NCBI RefSeq assembly: GCF_015207665.1
Contig: NZ_JADEWL010000010.1
Coordinates: 1-64,000 of the forward strand
Source: Plectonema cf. radiosum LEGE 06105
Lineage (GTDB): Bacteria; Cyanobacteriota; Cyanobacteriia; Cyanobacteriales; Nostocaceae
DNA length: 64,000 nucleotides
Reading direction: 5' to 3'
A model generated the notes under the pieces. That model ran no database searches. It had not been told where the DNA came from and worked only from the letters and a program-made list of their open reading frames with translations. Positions 10 to 27,116 of the stretch are shown piece by piece. Within the stretch, counting starts at the first letter, position 1. Each line of letters begins with the position of its first letter. Position numbers and translations under genes: made by a program.

Positions 10-2346
10 CTATTCCCTCAACTCATCCAATGGCAAATATTCGCGTAATGCTTCTAATTCTGCGGCTTTGACTATGGGAATTGAGAATACTGGCTGATTT
101 TGGCAGGAAAATAGTTCTTCTAGTTTATTTAAAGCTGATAATCTACCGCACAATAACAATTGATCGCGGTTTTGCAGCCGGGTTTTACTTTCGGGATAGC
201 GAAGAAATTTTCCTTCCCTTCTGATTGCTTGTATTTCTACAGCGTATTGTCGGCGAATGTCTAAATCGGCAAGGGTTTTACCTAATACGGGGGATTCCGA
301 ATCGAGTTTTACCCACTGACAAGCGCTGTTTTCTCCGGGTACGGTGGCTTTTCCTGATGCGAATTCTTCTAATGCGGCTATTTCTTCGGATGAACCAACT
401 ACTAAAAGCCTGTCTCCTTCTTCTAAAATAGTTTTAGCGTCGGGATAATCGATTTCTTCTCCTATGGTGCGTTGAATTGCCATTAAACTTACGCCGGTTA
501 AATAGCGCATATCGGCTTGTTCTAAGGTCATTCCGACTAAGGGGGAGTTTGTTGGTAAAGTATACCAGCGTTTGTTTAAATCGGCTGTAGCACGTCGTAA
601 AGCACGGGCTGCTTCGGAGGCTGATTGTTCGGGACGAAAATCTAGATAGTGACGTTGACGGATTTCTTGAATCTCTTGCTGTACCAATATTGCTGAAAGA
701 CCAATATCTGTTAACAGAAAGGAAACCATTTCTAAACTAGCTTCAAATTCCGGCTGTACAACTTCTCGCGCTCCTAATTGATAAAGTGCTTCAATATTTT
801 TGTTATTAGTGGCACGGACGACTATATTTAATTCTGGGAATAATTCTAAACCCCGTCGTAAAGTCAGACGAGTACTCATCGGATCGGGAAGTGCGATCGC
901 CATTGCTTTGGCTCGATTGATTCCTGCTGTTTCTAATACATGAAAACTTACGCAATTTCCGTATACATAAGGGATGGAGGCTTCCCGTAACTGTTGAATT
1001 ATCCTTTCGGATTGGTCTATAACTATTACGGGCAGTTGATGAGAAAGTAGCACTTTAACTAAGTTTTTACCGACCCTACCGTAACCGCAAACGATGATGT
1101 GGTCTTTAATTGGTAAATCATCGGCAACTTCGAGGGGTTTTCCTTCACCGTTGAGATAGGGTTGTAACCAAGGCATTGTTTCTGCCCAGTCAAATAAAAT
1201 TGGCAGTAAACGCAGTACGAAGGGCGTTAAAACTAATGTTACTGCCGTTGTACCTAATATAAGTAAATATACTCGGCGAGATACTAGCCCTAATTGTTGA
1301 CCTTCACTAGCAAGTACAAAGGAGAATTCACCAATTTGAGCTAGTCCCAAACCACAAATTAAAGCCGTTTTTAGGGGATAGCGGAATATTTTGACTAAAG
1401 GAGTAATAATTAAAAATTTACCGATAAATACCAGGGTTACCAATCCCAAAATTAATTCCAGATTTTTCCATAAAAATATCGGATCAATCAACATCCCCAC
1501 CGCAGCAAAGAATAAACTAGCGAAAATATCCCGCACAGGTTCAACATAAGTTAAAGTTTGGTCGGCATATTCCACTTCGGAAATCATCAAACCGGCGACA
1601 AAAGCCCCCATTTCAATGGAAAGTCCCAACTGTTCCGTTAACAGTGCAATTCCCAAACACAACGCCACCACACCCAATAAAAATAACTCTCGGCTTTCTG
1701 TCTGAGCCAGCAATCGCAATAAAGGGGGAATCAACCAAATTCCTGTAGCCACAGCACCCGCAGCGAATAAACCAATCTTTAACAGCGCCATTAATACCGC
1801 AATCGCAAGGGTTTCCGCTGGTTGATCGAGAGCGGGTAATACCGCTAACATCAATCCCAATGCTAAATCCTGCACCACTAGGATTCCCAACATCACCTGT
1901 CCGTGGGGAGTTTCCGTTTCATTGCGTTCCATCAAGCACTTTAGCACCACCGCAGTGGAAGACAAAGATAAAATTGCTCCCAAAAACACACCTTGAACCG
2001 GGGAATCTACCCAACCTACCCCCACAGATACCAGAGTCGTGATTGCGATCGTTAAAATAATTTGTAACCCACCACCACCCAAACTAATTTTCTTAACCTT
2101 ATTGAGTTCTGCAAAGGAAAATTCCACTCCTAGGGCAAACAGTAAGAAAGCTACACCAAACTGTGCTAAAGTTTCAACTTGGATAAACTCCTTAATTAAT
2201 CCAAATCCAGCGGGACCTATAAGCATCCCACCCACGAGATACCCTAATAACACAGGTAAACCCAAAAGTGAAGCAAACAGTCCCCCACCCGCAGCAACAG
2301 CGAGAACCGAAACCAAATCAACGATTAATCTAAAATCTTCTTGCAC
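10..2346 (-). CDS. CPA2-type cation:proton antiporter with RCK domains (KefB/KefC-like)
   Basis: Inner-membrane monovalent cation/proton exchanger of the CPA2 family. About the first 395 residues are a run of hydrophobic helices of the Na/H-exchanger fold. They are followed by a TrkA-N/RCK Rossmann domain (HIIVCGYGRVGKNL, a nucleotide-binding GxGxxG) and two TrkA-C-like domains near the C-terminus, each ending in a conserved 'GDRLLVVG' or 'RDQLLLCG' type strand. The architecture implies K+ or Na+ exchange gated by nucleotide or ligand binding in the cytosol. I chose the GTG at 2346; a TTG at 2367 would add seven residues. The gene is monocistronic, and short tandem repeats lie upstream. Substrate specificity cannot be read from the sequence. 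Confidence 0.9.
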   Translation of the reverse strand: MQEDFRLIVDLVSVLAVAAGGGLFASLLGLPVLLGYLVGGMLIGPAGFGLIKEFIQVETLAQFGVAFLLFALGVEFSFAELNKVKKISLGGGGLQIILTIAITTLVSVGVGWVDSPVQGVFLGAILSLSSTAVVLKCLMERNETETPHGQVMLGILVVQDLALGLMLAVLPALDQPAETLAIAVLMALLKIGLFAAGAVATGIWLIPPLLRLLAQTESRELFLLGVVALCLGIALLTEQLGLSIEMGAFVAGLMISEVEYADQTLTYVEPVRDIFASLFFAAVGMLIDPIFLWKNLELILGLVTLVFIGKFLIITPLVKIFRYPLKTALICGLGLAQIGEFSFVLASEGQQLGLVSRRVYLLILGTTAVTLVLTPFVLRLLPILFDWAETMPWLQPYLNGEGKPLEVADDLPIKDHIIVCGYGRVGKNLVKVLLSHQLPVIVIDQSERIIQQLREASIPYVYGNCVSFHVLETAGINRAKAMAIALPDPMSTRLTLRRGLELFPELNIVVRATNNKNIEALYQLGAREVVQPEFEASLEMVSFLLTDIGLSAILVQQEIQEIRQRHYLDFRPEQSASEAARALRRATADLNKRWYTLPTNSPLVGMTLEQADMRYLTGVSLMAIQRTIGEEIDYPDAKTILEEGDRLLVVGSSEEIAALEEFASGKATVPGENSACQWVKLDSESPVLGKTLADLDIRRQYAVEIQAIRREGKFLRYPESKTRLQNRDQLLLCGRLSALNKLEELFSCQNQPVFSIPIVKAAELEALREYLPLDELRE

Positions 2347-2399
2347 AAGTTTATAAAAAAATATCAATAACTCTTTTTACCAGCATACAAAGTTTTGTG

Positions 2400-2520
2400 A
2401 AGACTCGCTTAGGAATCAACAGTTAGGAGGAAGGGAGTTAGGAGGAAGGGAGTTAAGAATTAGGAGGAAGGGAATTAGGAGTTTTTGACCTTTGACCTAT
2501 AACCTTAAACCTTTGACCTG
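2400..2520. repeat. Short tandemly repeated sequence tract (STRR type)
   Basis: Intergenic tract made of iterations of 'gttaggaggaaggga', followed by degenerate 'gacctttgacctataacct' units. Such short low-complexity tandem repeats are common between genes of heterocystous cyanobacteria. No coding signal is seen. Confidence 0.7.
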
Positions 2521-3921
2521 TTAAAAAACCATTTCTTTCAAAGCCGTTTCTAAATCTTGAGTTAATTGAGCTACAGATTGCTTTGCACCTTGACGGTTTT
2601 GTCGGTAAACAGTAGCGCGATCGCTAATGTCAATTGGTTGTCCGACGGTAATTGTTGATTTACGGAATCCTAAGCGAGGACGACGAGGATTAATATTTCC
2701 TTTAATTCTGGCAATGGCATCAAATAAAATTAAGGTTGTTTCGGCGAATCTTTCAAAACAAGGTTTTTCTTGAATATAAGTACCTTTCATGACAACAAAA
2801 CTTTCTACTAAACGCATATGCAGCATCCGTAAATCGGCTTCTGCTGCAATCCAATCTGCTAACCCTTTTTTGACAGGAGATAAATGTTTAAATTTATCTG
2901 GTTCTTCGCGATAAATATAATTCCAACCTGCTTCTTCTAAACGTCTACACCGCTCAATAATATTTCCCGTTTTCTTAATTCCAAAATAGTCTTCTCCTAC
3001 TTGTAAAGATACATCTAATAATTTTTTTAATCTAAGAGTAATATTTTCTTCTCTACTATCACAATCTTCAGATAAATCTGGTAAATGACGATGATAAAAA
3101 CAACGATAAAAATCTTCCATTTCTGAGAGTAAATACTCTCCCAATCGCAACAAACGTTCTGAATATAATTTTTCTGGTTGTTCTGTAGTGGCAATTCCTA
3201 CTGTTTGTTTTGATAACCCACAATCTGCTTCTAATTTACTTAACAACCAATCTAGTTTTGACCATTGAGGATTAATGTAGTGATATTGAATATTAATCGG
3301 AACAACGATTACTCTTTCAATCCGGTTAGCTTTTGCTAAATCCTCTGCACACCAAAACGCTAATTGAGCAACACCAGGTTCGAGAGGACTAATAATTTCA
3401 CTATGACCATTTGTTGCACCTTCAGGAGCAACTACTAAAGGGAATTTACCATTAATTAATAATTCTCTAGTTTTTTTAATTGCTTGTAAGTCTAGAGTTT
3501 TACCTCGATGTACGGGAATTCCTCCTAACTGAGCAAACAACCAACCGAGCCAATCACCAGCCCAGATTGTCATACCTCTGTCATACATAAAATGATTGTG
3601 AATTGGAAGTTTTAAATTAATCTTTTGTTGACGAGCAATCTGAGGTATTCCGCGAGAAAATAAATACAAACCACTCAGAGGGTCGTCTACTTCACAATGA
3701 CGAAAGGCTAAAATTAAACGAATTTTTCCTAACTGGAATTGATGGTAAAGATTAACTAAAATTTCTCCATTCAATATTTCAATTTTGGTAATTCCTGATG
3801 GTAGCCAAGGTCGCAACCTAAAACGTTGTAAAATTGGCAACGACCAATGAATAAGTCTAAGAATCAAGGGGTTAAAAGTTGGGGGAATAAAATCTAATTT
3901 TGGTTGAGCGCTAGGAACCAT
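2521..3921 (-). CDS. 1-acyl-sn-glycerol-3-phosphate acyltransferase-like protein (PlsC family)
   Basis: Predicted membrane-associated glycerolipid acyltransferase, 466 aa, about twice the usual PlsC length. The acyltransferase box H-x4-D is visible as HCEVDD in 'FRHCEVDDPLSG', and the second block as 'VVAPEGATNG', which corresponds to the usual PEGTR-like motif. The roughly 200 residues after the PlsC core are a helical extension seen in cyanobacterial homologues. Expected role: transfer of an acyl chain to lysophosphatidic acid or a related lysolipid. It ends about 175 bp from the antiporter gene and begins 8 bp beyond the Obg stop in the same direction, so it may be co-transcribed with obg. 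The exact acyl acceptor is not determined by sequence. Confidence 0.85.
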   Translation of the reverse strand: MVPSAQPKLDFIPPTFNPLILRLIHWSLPILQRFRLRPWLPSGITKIEILNGEILVNLYHQFQLGKIRLILAFRHCEVDDPLSGLYLFSRGIPQIARQQKINLKLPIHNHFMYDRGMTIWAGDWLGWLFAQLGGIPVHRGKTLDLQAIKKTRELLINGKFPLVVAPEGATNGHSEIISPLEPGVAQLAFWCAEDLAKANRIERVIVVPINIQYHYINPQWSKLDWLLSKLEADCGLSKQTVGIATTEQPEKLYSERLLRLGEYLLSEMEDFYRCFYHRHLPDLSEDCDSREENITLRLKKLLDVSLQVGEDYFGIKKTGNIIERCRRLEEAGWNYIYREEPDKFKHLSPVKKGLADWIAAEADLRMLHMRLVESFVVMKGTYIQEKPCFERFAETTLILFDAIARIKGNINPRRPRLGFRKSTITVGQPIDISDRATVYRQNRQGAKQSVAQLTQDLETALKEMVF

Positions 3922-3929
3922 ATCATGCT

Positions 3930-4985
3930 TTAAAATTCAAATGATGAACTAGAAACTGGTATTTCAATCTCTTCAACTTCATCAACAACCAAAGTATCAA
4001 GAGTATCCCAAATTTGCTGCAACATCGACTGTAAACCTTCACCAGTTACTGCCGAAATTAGAAAAACCGGAGCGTAGGAAAGATGATTTAATTGGGTTGC
4101 TAATGCTTCTAAATCAACACTTTCTTTATCTACAGCATCAATTTTATTCAAGGCGATAATTTGGGTTTTTTCTCGCAATTTCCGTCCATATGATTGTAAT
4201 TCCTGCACTATCGTCTTGTACTCGCCAATTACATCTTCACTAGTTGCATCAATTACGTGTAGTAATAAACGGGTACGTTCAATGTGACGCAAGAAATCAT
4301 GTCCTAATCCCGCGCCTTGGGAAGCACCTTCAATTAATCCCGGAATATCCGCAAAAACCGTACCATCTCCGGTAGGTTTCCTTACAACACCTAAATTAGG
4401 GATTAAAGTAGTAAAAGGATAATCGGCAATTTTGGGACGTGCTGCCGATAAAGCCGAAATTAAAGTAGATTTTCCGGCATTTGGTAATCCAATAATTCCG
4501 ACTTCTGCTAACAGTTTCAACTCTAAACGTAACGCTTTAATTTCTCCATCCAATCCGGGTAAAGCGTATTCGGGTGCGCGGTTGCGGTTGCTCAAAAAAC
4601 ACTTATTTCCTAATCCACCTTTACCGCCTTGAGCAACTAATAAAGTTTGTCCGGGTTTTGTTAAATCACCAATTAATTCGTCAGTTTCCCCATTATAAAC
4701 AGCAGTACCACAGGGAACTTCAATTAATAAATCATCTCCAGATGCGCCGGTACAATTTTTCGGACCGCCGCGAGAACCGTTTTGCGCTACGAAACGACGT
4801 TTGTATCTAAAGTCCAACAAGGTTTGTAGATTTTCAGAAGCAGCTAAAATTACCGAACCACCGCGTCCGCCATTTCCTCCCGAAGGACCGCCAGCAGGTA
4901 CGTACTTTTCCCTACGAAAAGCTACCATACCATCACCGCCTTTACCTGCTTCTACTTCAATTTTTGCTTGATCGATAAATTGCAT
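3930..4985 (-). CDS. obg: GTPase Obg (CgtA), ribosome assembly GTPase
   Basis: Obg family GTPase, 351 aa, involved in large-subunit ribosome maturation and stress control. The glycine-rich Obg fold is at residues 1-158 ('[20 protein letters not shown]'). The G domain follows, with G1 [10 protein letters not shown]3 DIPGLIEGA and G4 NKID. A short acidic C-terminal tail follows the G domain. I place the start at the ATG at 4985, because the family always begins near [11 protein letters not shown]. The in-frame extension to 5057 is translated from 'ggtaattggtaatggg' repeats and is probably non-coding. The gene is upstream of, and may be co-transcribed with, the PlsC-like gene. Confidence 0.97.
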
Positions 4986-24427: not shown

Positions 24428-25747
24428 ATGTCATCTCAAGGTTTACTAATTCGCCGTGCGAATATCATTTTACCCAATGGTGAATCAATCGTTGGGGATG
24501 TGCTGATACGCGATCGCCAAATTGTTAATGTTTCACCATCAGAGATAGAGGAAACAGCTACCCGTTCAATTGACGCTGACGGGTTAACTTTGTTGCCAGG
24601 AGTTATCGATCCACAAGTACATTTTCGGGAGCCGGGGCTGGAGCATAAAGAAGACTTATTTACTGCTTCTTGTGCCTGTGCCAAGGGAGGAGTGACTTCG
24701 TTCCTGGAAATGCCAAATACGCGCCCTTTAACAATTAGTCAAGCTGCTTTAAATGACAAGTTAGAACGTGCTGCTAATAAGTGTCTTGTTAATTATGGCT
24801 TTTTTATTGGAGCAACCTCAGATAATTTGTTGGAATTGCTACAGGCTAGCCCTACTCCAGGAATCAAGATTTTCATGGGGTCGATGCACGGTCCTTTGCT
24901 AGTAGATCCTCAAGAAATATTAGAAGCGATATTTGCCAACGGCAACATCTTAATTGCAGTTCATGCAGAAGACCAAACTAGGTTAAGACAGCGCAGAGAA
25001 GAATTTGCAAATATTCATGATGTCGCTATTCACTCCCAAATACAAGATTCTCTTGCAGCATTGATAGCAACAAAAAGAGCTTTAGCACTTTCTAAAAAAT
25101 ATCGTCGCCGCCTACATATTCTGCATATGTCTACGGCAGAGGAAGCAGATTTACTTCGTGAAGATAAACCTAGTTGGGTGACGGCAGAAGTAACACCCCA
25201 ACATTTATTGTTGAATACGACTGCTTACGAAAAAATAGGCAGTTTGGCGCAGATGAATCCTCCTTTGCGAACATCTCATGATAATCAAGTACTTTGGCAG
25301 GCTTTGTTGGATGGGGTGATTGATTTTATCGCAACTGATCACGCGCCCCACACTTTAGAAGAAAAAGCCCAAACTTATCCTCAAAGTCCTTCGGGAATGC
25401 CGGGAGTAGAAACTTCTTTACCTTTAATGCTAACTGCCGCAGTTGAAGGACGTTGTACTGTTGCTCAAGTTGTTAACTGGATGTCAACTGCTGTTGCTAC
25501 TGCTTATTCTATTCCGAATAAAGGGCTAATTTCTCCCGGTTATGATGCCGATTTAGTGTTGGTAGATTTAAATTCGCGAAAAAAAGTCCGCCGCGAGGAA
25601 CTTGTGACTAAATGCGGTTGGAGTCCTTTTGAAGGCTGGAATCTCACGGGATGGCCGGTAACAACTATTGTTGGAGGTGAAGTTGTTTATCACAAAGGTG
25701 AGTTAAATACCTCTATAAGAGGTAGAGCTTTAAGTTTTGAGCGTTAG
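24428..25747 (+). CDS. pyrC: Dihydroorotase
   Basis: A zinc-dependent amidohydrolase that closes carbamoyl-aspartate to dihydroorotate in pyrimidine synthesis. It is 439 aa, the class I length. The metal and substrate box is 'GVIDPQVHFREPGLEHKED' (H65, with R67 for the carboxylate); further metal ligands are in 'ILIAVHAEDQTR' and 'HILHMSTAEEA', and the catalytic aspartate is in 'FIATDHAPHTLEEK'. The 'GIKIFMGSMHG' block is also typical. A strong hairpin terminator follows at 25770. The gene is monocistronic. Confidence 0.93.
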   Translation: MSSQGLLIRRANIILPNGESIVGDVLIRDRQIVNVSPSEIEETATRSIDADGLTLLPGVIDPQVHFREPGLEHKEDLFTASCACAKGGVTSFLEMPNTRPLTISQAALNDKLERAANKCLVNYGFFIGATSDNLLELLQASPTPGIKIFMGSMHGPLLVDPQEILEAIFANGNILIAVHAEDQTRLRQRREEFANIHDVAIHSQIQDSLAALIATKRALALSKKYRRRLHILHMSTAEEADLLREDKPSWVTAEVTPQHLLLNTTAYEKIGSLAQMNPPLRTSHDNQVLWQALLDGVIDFIATDHAPHTLEEKAQTYPQSPSGMPGVETSLPLMLTAAVEGRCTVAQVVNWMSTAVATAYSIPNKGLISPGYDADLVLVDLNSRKKVRREELVTKCGWSPFEGWNLTGWPVTTIVGGEVVYHKGELNTSIRGRALSFER

Positions 25748-25769
25748 CTCGTAATCAGGTAAAAAGCTT

Positions 25770-25808
25770 TCAAGCGCTTGTGGTTTTCACACAAGCGCTT
25801 TATTTTTG
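25770..25808 (+). terminator. Rho-independent terminator of pyrC
   Basis: Inverted arms AAGCGCTTGTG and CACAAGCGCTT enclose a short loop at 25772-25800 and are followed by 'TATTTTTGTT'. It lies 23 bp past the pyrC stop, a standard intrinsic terminator. Confidence 0.8.
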
Positions 25809-26290
25809 TTTACCAGTAATTTGAAGGCACTAATTAGTCAAACTTTCAGTCAACTACAGGTACAAATAGTCTATTTTTCATCCAAACAAATTTACGTAAT
25901 CGCATTAGTGTTTTTATTTATACTAATTACCAAACTTATTCAACCGTGATTTTTTAAGTATATATTCTGCTTTTAATCGGATTAATTATAGTTGAAAATT
26001 ATTTTTTTCAGTATTTATGACATTTGACAAACCGCAAAAATCTAGATAATGCAATTATTAAGAGTATGCAAAACTACTGAAGACAAAAAGATTAATTTAA
26101 TATTAACTTGATTTTTTTCAATAAATTACTAGCATTTACTCTTACGAGCAATTACTCAGGCATATCAATAATAAACGTGTCAAACTAAACACAAAAATAA
26201 ATAAGCTTGATTGTTAAAGATGATAAAAATCTTGGTAAACAAGCACTATTTACAAGCATCTACTGACAAAAAACACTAAAAATAAAATAC

Positions 26291-26321
26291 TTGACAAATT
26301 TGTGACTAATTAAGGTATCAT
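26291..26321 (+). promoter_or_regulatory. Candidate sigma70-like promoter upstream of patS
   Basis: TTGACA at 26291-26296 and TATCAT at 26316-26321. The 19-bp spacer is longer than optimal, so this is tentative. It would give a leader of roughly 120 nt before the patS ATG. Confidence 0.3.
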
Positions 26322-26433
26322 CCTCCCTTGTTAACTCTTACTTGGTTTGGCATGATACTTAATCAATCGTCATAGTTAGTATAAAATAAGCGCTGAAAAT
26401 GAATACGTCTTTCTATTTTGTAAATCAATTATT

Positions 26434-26440
26434 AGGTGAT
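26434..26440 (+). promoter_or_regulatory. Strong Shine-Dalgarno (AGGTGAT) deciding the patS start
   Basis: AGGTGAT at 26434-26440 is fully complementary to the 16S anti-SD tail and sits 10 nt before the ATG at 26451. An in-frame GTG at 26436 lies inside this SD and is therefore an unlikely start. Confidence 0.65.
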
Positions 26441-26450
26441 TATAATTACA

Positions 26451-26492
26451 ATGTGCTGCATTTTTTTTGATGAACGAGGCAGTGGCAGATAG
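26451..26492 (+). CDS. patS: PatS heterocyst-inhibitor peptide (MCCIFFDERGSGR)
   Basis: A 13-codon ORF whose translation is MCCIFFDERGSGR. The last seven residues DERGSGR are identical to those of Anabaena PCC 7120 PatS, and RGSGR is the pentapeptide that moves between cells, binds HetR and blocks heterocyst differentiation near existing heterocysts. The 13-residue length equals the shorter reported Anabaena PatS form; the shared M, F and DERGSGR positions align directly. A perfect Shine-Dalgarno stands 10 nt upstream, and an intrinsic-terminator hairpin starts 16 nt after the stop. The gene is convergent with the tsaE/hetY-type gene, as I recall for patS and hetY in Anabaena. It is easily missed because it is so short. 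Confidence 0.9.
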   Translation: MCCIFFDERGSGR

Positions 26493-26507
26493 AACGGACT
26501 ACAGAAG

Positions 26508-26551
26508 GAACCTAGATTACTTGTGGGAGTATATCTAAGGGTTCATTTTTT
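26508..26551 (+). terminator. Intrinsic terminator-like hairpin downstream of patS
   Basis: GAACCTAGAT at 26508-26517 pairs with ATCTAAGGGTTC at 26533-26544 (two-base bulge), with a 15-nt loop, followed by ATTTTTTAG. It would end a very short transcript just after the RGSGR codons and before the convergent tsaE gene. Confidence 0.6.
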
Positions 26552-26564
26552 AGAAGAGATATTG

Positions 26565-27065
26565 CTACTGACAATGATATTCTTCGGTTAAACTCAGAAT
26601 TTTCTCGCTAAGAGTGCAATTAAATGGAGTGATTTCGGCAAAGCGTATAGAAGAGTTAGACGCTTGAATGTCCCGGTTGTCGTCAGTTAAATGTATGGTG
26701 AGATAAGAAGAGGGTTTATAAGGCATTCGTTGCGCCCATTCAATAGCTACTATTCCCGGTGCAACCTCAAGAGCTTCCCAGTAAGTTTCGAGGTTTAAGC
26801 CCAGTATTTCGCGAGATTCTAAACGATATAAATCTAGATGGTATAAGGGTAAGCGTCCTTGAGTATATTCATTAATAATATTGAAAGTTGGACTGACGAT
26901 TGTTTCGTTAATACCCAAACCTTCACCTATACCTTGCACTAAGGTAGTTTTACCCGTCCCCAAATCACCTTCTAGTAAAATTATACTATTGGCAGTTAGG
27001 GTTTTGCCGAGAATAATGCCCAAATTTTGAGTTGCGAGTGCATCTTCAAGAAGGATTTTTATCAT
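26565..27065 (-). CDS. tsaE: tRNA t6A synthesis ATPase TsaE (HetY-type locus)
   Basis: A 166-aa P-loop ATPase of the TsaE/YjeE family, a component of the TsaB-TsaD-TsaE machinery making threonylcarbamoyl-adenosine at tRNA position 37. The Walker A is in 'LLEGDLGTGKTTLVQGIGEG', followed by 'SPTFNIINEY', 'LYHLDLYRL' and 'VAIEWAQRM', all standard blocks. It is tail to tail with patS. In Anabaena PCC 7120 the gene next to patS, named hetY, belongs to this same family and affects heterocyst development. I therefore regard this as the hetY orthologue candidate. yvcK lies upstream on the same strand. Confidence 0.9.
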   Translation of the reverse strand: MIKILLEDALATQNLGIILGKTLTANSIILLEGDLGTGKTTLVQGIGEGLGINETIVSPTFNIINEYTQGRLPLYHLDLYRLESREILGLNLETYWEALEVAPGIVAIEWAQRMPYKPSSYLTIHLTDDNRDIQASNSSIRFAEITPFNCTLSEKILSLTEEYHCQ

Positions 27066-27116
27066 CTTTGCTCCTAAAGCGCTCTAGAATTACCGAGCAA
27101 AATTTTGAGAGCCTCC

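Follow-up and report, generated by a model that had tools for sequence, protein, structure and literature searches.

Identification of a patS minigene

In the 64,000-nucleotide stretch analysed here (hereafter the window; positions 1 to 64,000 of contig NZ_JADEWL010000010.1 of Plectonema cf. radiosum LEGE 06105), the open reading frame at positions 26451 to 26492 of the forward strand is, with a probability of about 0.93, a genuine patS orthologous to Anabaena patS. It is a new copy of an already known gene, whose product is the signal that sets the spacing of nitrogen-fixing cells in cyanobacterial filaments. The frame translates to MCCIFFDERGSGR followed by a TAG stop, which makes it a short ORF with an ERGSGR end, as is typical of PatS. 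Its identification rests on the inhibitor motif, the position beside tsaE and the retention of the gene in every genome of the genus examined. A preliminary description of this DNA, made from the sequence alone, had already called the frame patS, and its coordinates, reading frame, peptide and stop proved exact on re-reading. The codons for DERGSGR, which include PatS-6 (ERGSGR) and PatS-5 (RGSGR), lie at 26469 to 26489 on the same strand and show only synonymous changes in the eight genomes of the genus (8/8).

PatS of Anabaena sp. PCC 7120 (asl2301) ends in the same DERGSGR, as had been claimed, belongs to the same minigene size class (13 residues when counted from its second Met) and is likewise encoded convergently to a t6A gene (alr2300, judged by locus tag). 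The two differ in the leader, which is MLVNFC there and MCCIFF here, and the present gene has neither an in-frame upstream ATG nor an exact DIF1 motif of the kind described in an excerpt of PMC7377430 within 1 kb. PatS of Nodularia spumigena CCY9414 is also a minigene product with a DERGSGR end, but the accessible part of PMC3610870 gives it 17 aa and an Anabaena-type leader (MKTTMLVNFL). The ‘classical’ PatS of branching cyanobacteria shares ERGSGR, whereas 90% of the 38 putative PatS and alternative PatS sequences in the relevant passage of PMC5812504 have 65–115 aa, compared with 13–18 aa here. The MCCIFF form does not appear in the available portions of three papers from the open-access literature (PMC6985446, PMC5812504 and PMC3610870).

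Two other proteins carrying the inhibitor motif were considered. PatX, like PatS, carries an RG(S/T)GR inhibitor of HetR, but passages of PMC12756182 and PMC7761841 describe an exported precursor that exceeds PatS in length, has H in front of RG(S/T)GR and is cut by PatP. We took as PatX a longer protein having a signal peptide and (H/Y)RG(S/T)GR near its C-terminus. The frame at 26451–26492 does not qualify, with 13–18 aa, D-E before RGSGR and no room for a signal peptide, and it is distinct from the two PatX-like ORFs of the same genome described below (L205 and L209). HetN, a full-length dehydrogenase-like protein with an internal RGSGR, was also rejected, as the frame has only 13–18 codons and its RGSGR is terminal.

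The frame is very short, and gene callers would skip an ORF of this kind, so that a chance origin has to be weighed. With both strands of a 7.6-Mb genome and an assumed GC content of 37%, DERGSGR followed by a stop is expected 0.00036 times, and only 0.0001 times when an in-frame ATG within 17 codons is required (same size and composition). The DERGSGR-stop pattern had exactly one match in the genome. Since the frame is also conserved in place in 8/8 genomes of the genus, which refutes a chance origin, we give this explanation practically no weight.

Genomic position and motif variants

A gene of t6A synthesis, tsaE, lies at 26565 to 27065 on the reverse strand (PF02367, E = 1.6e-34), corresponding to the position of Anabaena alr2300. 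It is convergent with patS, with its stop 72 nt beyond the patS stop. Upstream of patS is an amidohydrolase gene at 24428 to 25747 on the forward strand (PF01979), probably pyrC (dihydroorotase; the name is inferred). The convergent arrangement of patS and tsaE was found in 8/8 genomes of the genus, which places these genes at orthologous positions. In Anabaena, alr2300 is described as a t6A gene in an excerpt of PMC10272220 and asl2301 as patS in one of PMC5812504. The adjacency of the two is read from their consecutive locus tags. We take alr2300 to be the gene named HetY; a search of the open-access literature for hetY together with heterocyst and patS returned nothing.

Among 50 loci from 60 other genomes bearing the pattern, a tsaE relative was present in 41, including those of all seven other genomes of the genus, and a pyrC relative in 33. 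Nine patS loci had no tsaE in the stretch compared. Two of these have tsaE about 1.5 kb (L130) and about 5 kb (L107) away, two others (L092 and L093) retain pyrC, and the remaining five, all of genus g7, have a different gene context. In these five loci (L096, L097, L098, L099 and L102; 3 kb each), DERGSGR and the stop are present with no TsaE, PyrC, YvcK-like protein or LepB. Either patS has moved in genus g7 or its neighbours have.

As loci selected by the motif would make this comparison circular, a sample anchored on tsaE was also taken. The gene was found in 214 genomes, and about 1.6 kb beyond it was examined in 40 loci, 37 from genomes negative for the DERGSGR-stop pattern and three from genomes with patS elsewhere. 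Of the 37 pattern-negative loci, 24 had an ERGSGR frame, in every case convergent to tsaE; the other 13 had none beside tsaE, nor did any of the three loci from genomes with patS elsewhere (0/3). In this sample, the motif can thus be predicted from the position beside tsaE in about two thirds of cases. A loose form of the motif had one other match across the 40 loci. The variants read GERGSGR, SERGSGR, TERGSGR or NERGSGR, and in L168, one of the 24, no in-frame Met occurs within 20 codons. Seven of the 24 (L162, L169, L170, L171, L180, L183 and L185) have residues after ERGSGR, and these would have to lose their C-terminal extension before they could act like PatS-6. In the same scan, L015 and L016 duplicated two of the sampled contigs, and L014, L017 and L018 had no ERGSGR frame.

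Conservation and start site

The DERGSGR-stop pattern was found in 61 of 217 genomes of the family, with one match each, while a reversed-pattern control gave 10 matches in nine genomes of the same set. It occurs once in each of the eight genomes of the genus, including the present one; these were not selected via the motif, since all eight available genomes match. The absence of the ORF from close relatives with conserved flanks, named beforehand as an observation that would speak against the gene, was therefore not what we found. Counted by eye, the DERGSGR residues are unchanged in 8/8 genomes, with synonymous variation in the codons for the first Arg, the first Gly and the second Gly and in the stop codon. 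By contrast, each of the six leader codons shows residue changes within the genus. The leaders are MCCIFF (three genomes), MCCNFC (two), MYCNFY, VYCNSC and AYYHCC (one each). This pattern, an eye count rather than a dN/dS estimate, indicates purifying selection on the inhibitor motif, with a leader that appears nearly free to change. It agrees with the earlier remark that the motif is kept and the leader divergent. Outside the genus, the patS of G200 (L132) encodes a 17-residue product, and its DNA matches the Anabaena patS primer published in PMC5812504, as given in an excerpt of that paper.

The ATG at the patS position is kept in 6/8 genomes. It is replaced by GCG in G186 (L121; a three-contig relative) and by GTG in G190 (L125), with DERGSGR intact in both. 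These replacements bear on where translation starts, since the product might be longer, beginning at the in-frame GTG at 26436 to 26438 (18 aa; a TAG at 26433–26435 closes the frame upstream) or at an in-frame upstream ATG seen in relatives (31 aa). The lack of the ATG in G186 and the upstream ATG of five genomes of the genus favour such a product. In the clade of the present genome, however, ACG stands in place of the upstream ATG and the frame is interrupted by an 8-nt gap; the GTG falls within the Shine-Dalgarno sequence; and most of the genus keeps the patS ATG. We regard a longer product as unlikely. It would be a variant of the patS orthologue reading and does not exclude it.

The Shine-Dalgarno sequence is AGGTGAT (26434 to 26440, forward strand), 10 nt before the ATG. 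The anti-Shine-Dalgarno of the 16S tail includes AUCACCU, with which AGGTGAT can pair. The spacing and plausible pairing of what had been called a perfect Shine-Dalgarno thus hold, but it is partial, having no GGAGG core, and varies in relatives, where the aligned stretch reads GGGTGAT, AAGGTGAT, AAGGTAAT or AAGTGAT. The terminator-like hairpin noted after the stop is present as well. Predicted by folding at 26508 to 26544 (forward strand) and followed by A and six U, it may be a terminator between the convergent genes; the segment folds at -16.4 kcal/mol, with z-scores of -2.05 (75 nt) and -2.92 (68 nt). A consensus terminator scan over 25800–27100, however, found none, and conservation of the hairpin does not extend to the two nearest relatives (97–98% TsaE identity), where z-scores of -0.50 and -0.12 are at the level of shuffled sequences. 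Only G190 among the seven relatives clearly beats its shuffles (z = -3.10), and the other four range from -1.61 to +1.09.

Heterocyst-related genes in the genome

The preliminary description had concluded that the organism is a heterocyst former. Although patS is insufficient for this on its own, the conclusion fits with an interrupted nifK, PatX-like ORFs and hetR in 6/8 genomes of the genus, which together support it.

Searches with the HetR profiles PF03574 and PF18460 found nothing in the present genome and nothing in control genomes either, so that they say little. A search of the genus with PF18460 detected hetR in six of the eight genomes (G185 to G190) and none in the present genome (G000) or in G191, which is 84% complete. 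The flanks of hetR in G188 (L140) match the ends of two contigs of the present assembly (C254:1-1267 and C207:32-386) at 94 and 97%, and the hetR-bearing stretch is missing from the assembly between repeats. Therefore, its hetR apparently falls in a repeat-bounded assembly gap rather than having been lost. According to passages of PMC4649674, HetR residues E253, E254, D256, D270 and D278 contact PatS-6, and R223 lies near the C-terminal carboxyl of the peptide. All six residues are kept in 6/6 HetRs of the genus (three computed, three by eye).

Residues 1–96 and 85–433 of nifK are encoded on contig C250 with a recombinase ORF between them, and the end (425–516) on C316. Within L201 (C250:56500-63500), a segment of about 1.7 kb splits nifK (1746–4823); it contains an ORF of the phage integrase family (2126–3517, PF00589). 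Elements of this kind are excised during heterocyst differentiation, as an excerpt of PMC4874684 states, and the interruption of nifK is probably a heterocyst-type element.

A search of the genome for RG(S/T)GR followed by a stop gave nine places, one of which is patS, and a search for (H/Y)RG(S/T)GR gave seven, of which two are PatX-like. These two are ORFs of 62 aa (L205; C43:1519) and 70 aa (L209; C207:10408) with HRGSGR; in L209, TCCGGA precedes the ATG by 63 bp. Two further candidates (L001 and L006) were rejected as PatX, since none of the ORFs listed for them (minimum 30 and 40 aa) ends in the motif, and a place on C213 from the first search was not PatX-like.

Upstream region

According to a passage of PMC7377430, Anabaena patS is driven by DIF1, a motif that lies 35 bp ahead of a start site at -580. 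Exact DIF1 (TCCGGA) was found within 1 kb upstream of patS in 0/8 genomes of the genus. The present genome also has no one-mismatch form within 900 bp upstream; G186, G187 and G190 carry such forms upstream of patS. Of the 43 other DERGSGR-stop loci, one of which offers just 332 bp of upstream sequence, 31 have exact TCCGGA within 1 kb, as do 8 of the 24 variant loci (1 kb). The DIF1 promoter is therefore usual for patS, not defining. In addition, hetR upstream regions of G187, G188 and G189 have no exact TCCGGA, so that its absence is not special to patS. A degenerate DIF1 scan was run against plain base shuffles, 60 per sequence. It gave 14 matches in the present sequence, with 43/60 shuffles as good, and four relatives were also at shuffle level; in G185, G190 and G186, 12/60, 2/60 and 0/60 shuffles were as good (in G186, TCCGTATTT). 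The scan is weak, as a locus with known DIF1 (L132; 2/60) and one without DIF1 (L096; 1/60) score alike.

The missing DIF1 motif could mean that patS is decaying in the genus, its motif surviving in a gene that is unexpressed or unneeded while PatX carries the inhibition. The ATG lost in G186 and the two PatX-like ORFs, one with TCCGGA before its ATG, point the same way. Decay would, however, hardly keep DERGSGR and the stop in all eight genomes while synonymous sites and the leader change, and the 12 of the 43 other DERGSGR-stop loci that have no exact DIF1 in the searched stretch still keep patS. We therefore consider decay very improbable and retain the reading of a genuine patS.

NtcA-type sites have the consensus GTA-N8-TAC, and a candidate (GTATGCAAAACTAC) lies at 26064 to 26077 on the forward strand, 387 bp before the ATG. 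It is exact at the aligned place in 5/8 genomes of the genus; five relatives have further GTA-N8-TAC strings at other upstream positions. An upstream block at 26127 to 26202 (forward strand) has matches of 91–99% identity in six of the seven other genomes of the genus; at E 0.01, G187 and the other loci compared have no match. No Rfam family reached its gathering score over 25700–26620, and two weak sub-gathering matches over the patS region were taken as noise.

Codon usage at the end of the motif

The last Arg codon of patS (26487–26489) is AGA in 51/51 DERGSGR-stop loci and 22/24 variants, or 73/75 overall, although these counts come from related species and are not independent. AGA encodes the first Arg of the motif in 2/51 and 0/24, respectively. 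For comparison, a rough set of 152 ORFs called mechanically with a 450-nt minimum contains 1901 Arg codons, 349 of them AGA; of the 12 ORFs in this set that end in Arg, one has AGA as its last codon. The last codon and the stop are part of a predicted stem (GATAG/CTATC plus CGAG/CTCG) in 18 loci selected by eye; only one predicted pair of this stem has changed on both sides. A string test for GATAG, 15–40 bases and CTATY, scored as raw counts with no shuffled control, was positive in 27 of the 43 other DERGSGR-stop loci and in 7 of the 24 variants; with CTATC required, it was positive in 0/8 loci of the genus. The genus keeps AGA in 8/8 loci with neither the GATAG stem nor exact DIF1, so AGA may help this very small peptide to be translated or released. 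The gene patS might be constrained at the nucleotide level besides the peptide, and another promoter might drive the gene in this genus. We hold this as a tentative and distinctly improbable proposal.

Possible function and implications

Anabaena cells process their 17-aa PatS to ERGSGR or RGSGR, and the short peptide binds HetR and keeps it from binding DNA (excerpts of PMC12756182 and PMC5812504); its binding site is a cleft in the hood of HetR (PMC4649674, in part). Met plus the last eight residues of PatS suffice as the only PatS in that organism, according to a passage of PMC4133259. By analogy, patS of the present organism would be transcribed in cells that begin to differentiate into heterocysts, and its 13-aa product (or 18-aa from the GTG) would be trimmed in the producing cell to ERGSGR or RGSGR. 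The trimmed peptide would then move to neighbouring cells, bind the HetR hood domain and take HetR off DNA, so that these cells would stay undifferentiated. The leader would serve as a disposable carrier, hence free to diverge. The two PatX-like ORFs of the genome could do the same job.

By itself, the patS at 26451–26492 is an ordinary orthologue. It adds a clear patS to the Rivularia-type lineage, in a form that gene callers likely miss. The position next to tsaE reveals patS variants missed by a strict motif search, and a search anchored on tsaE would help to map the heterocyst formers that have PatS besides PatX.
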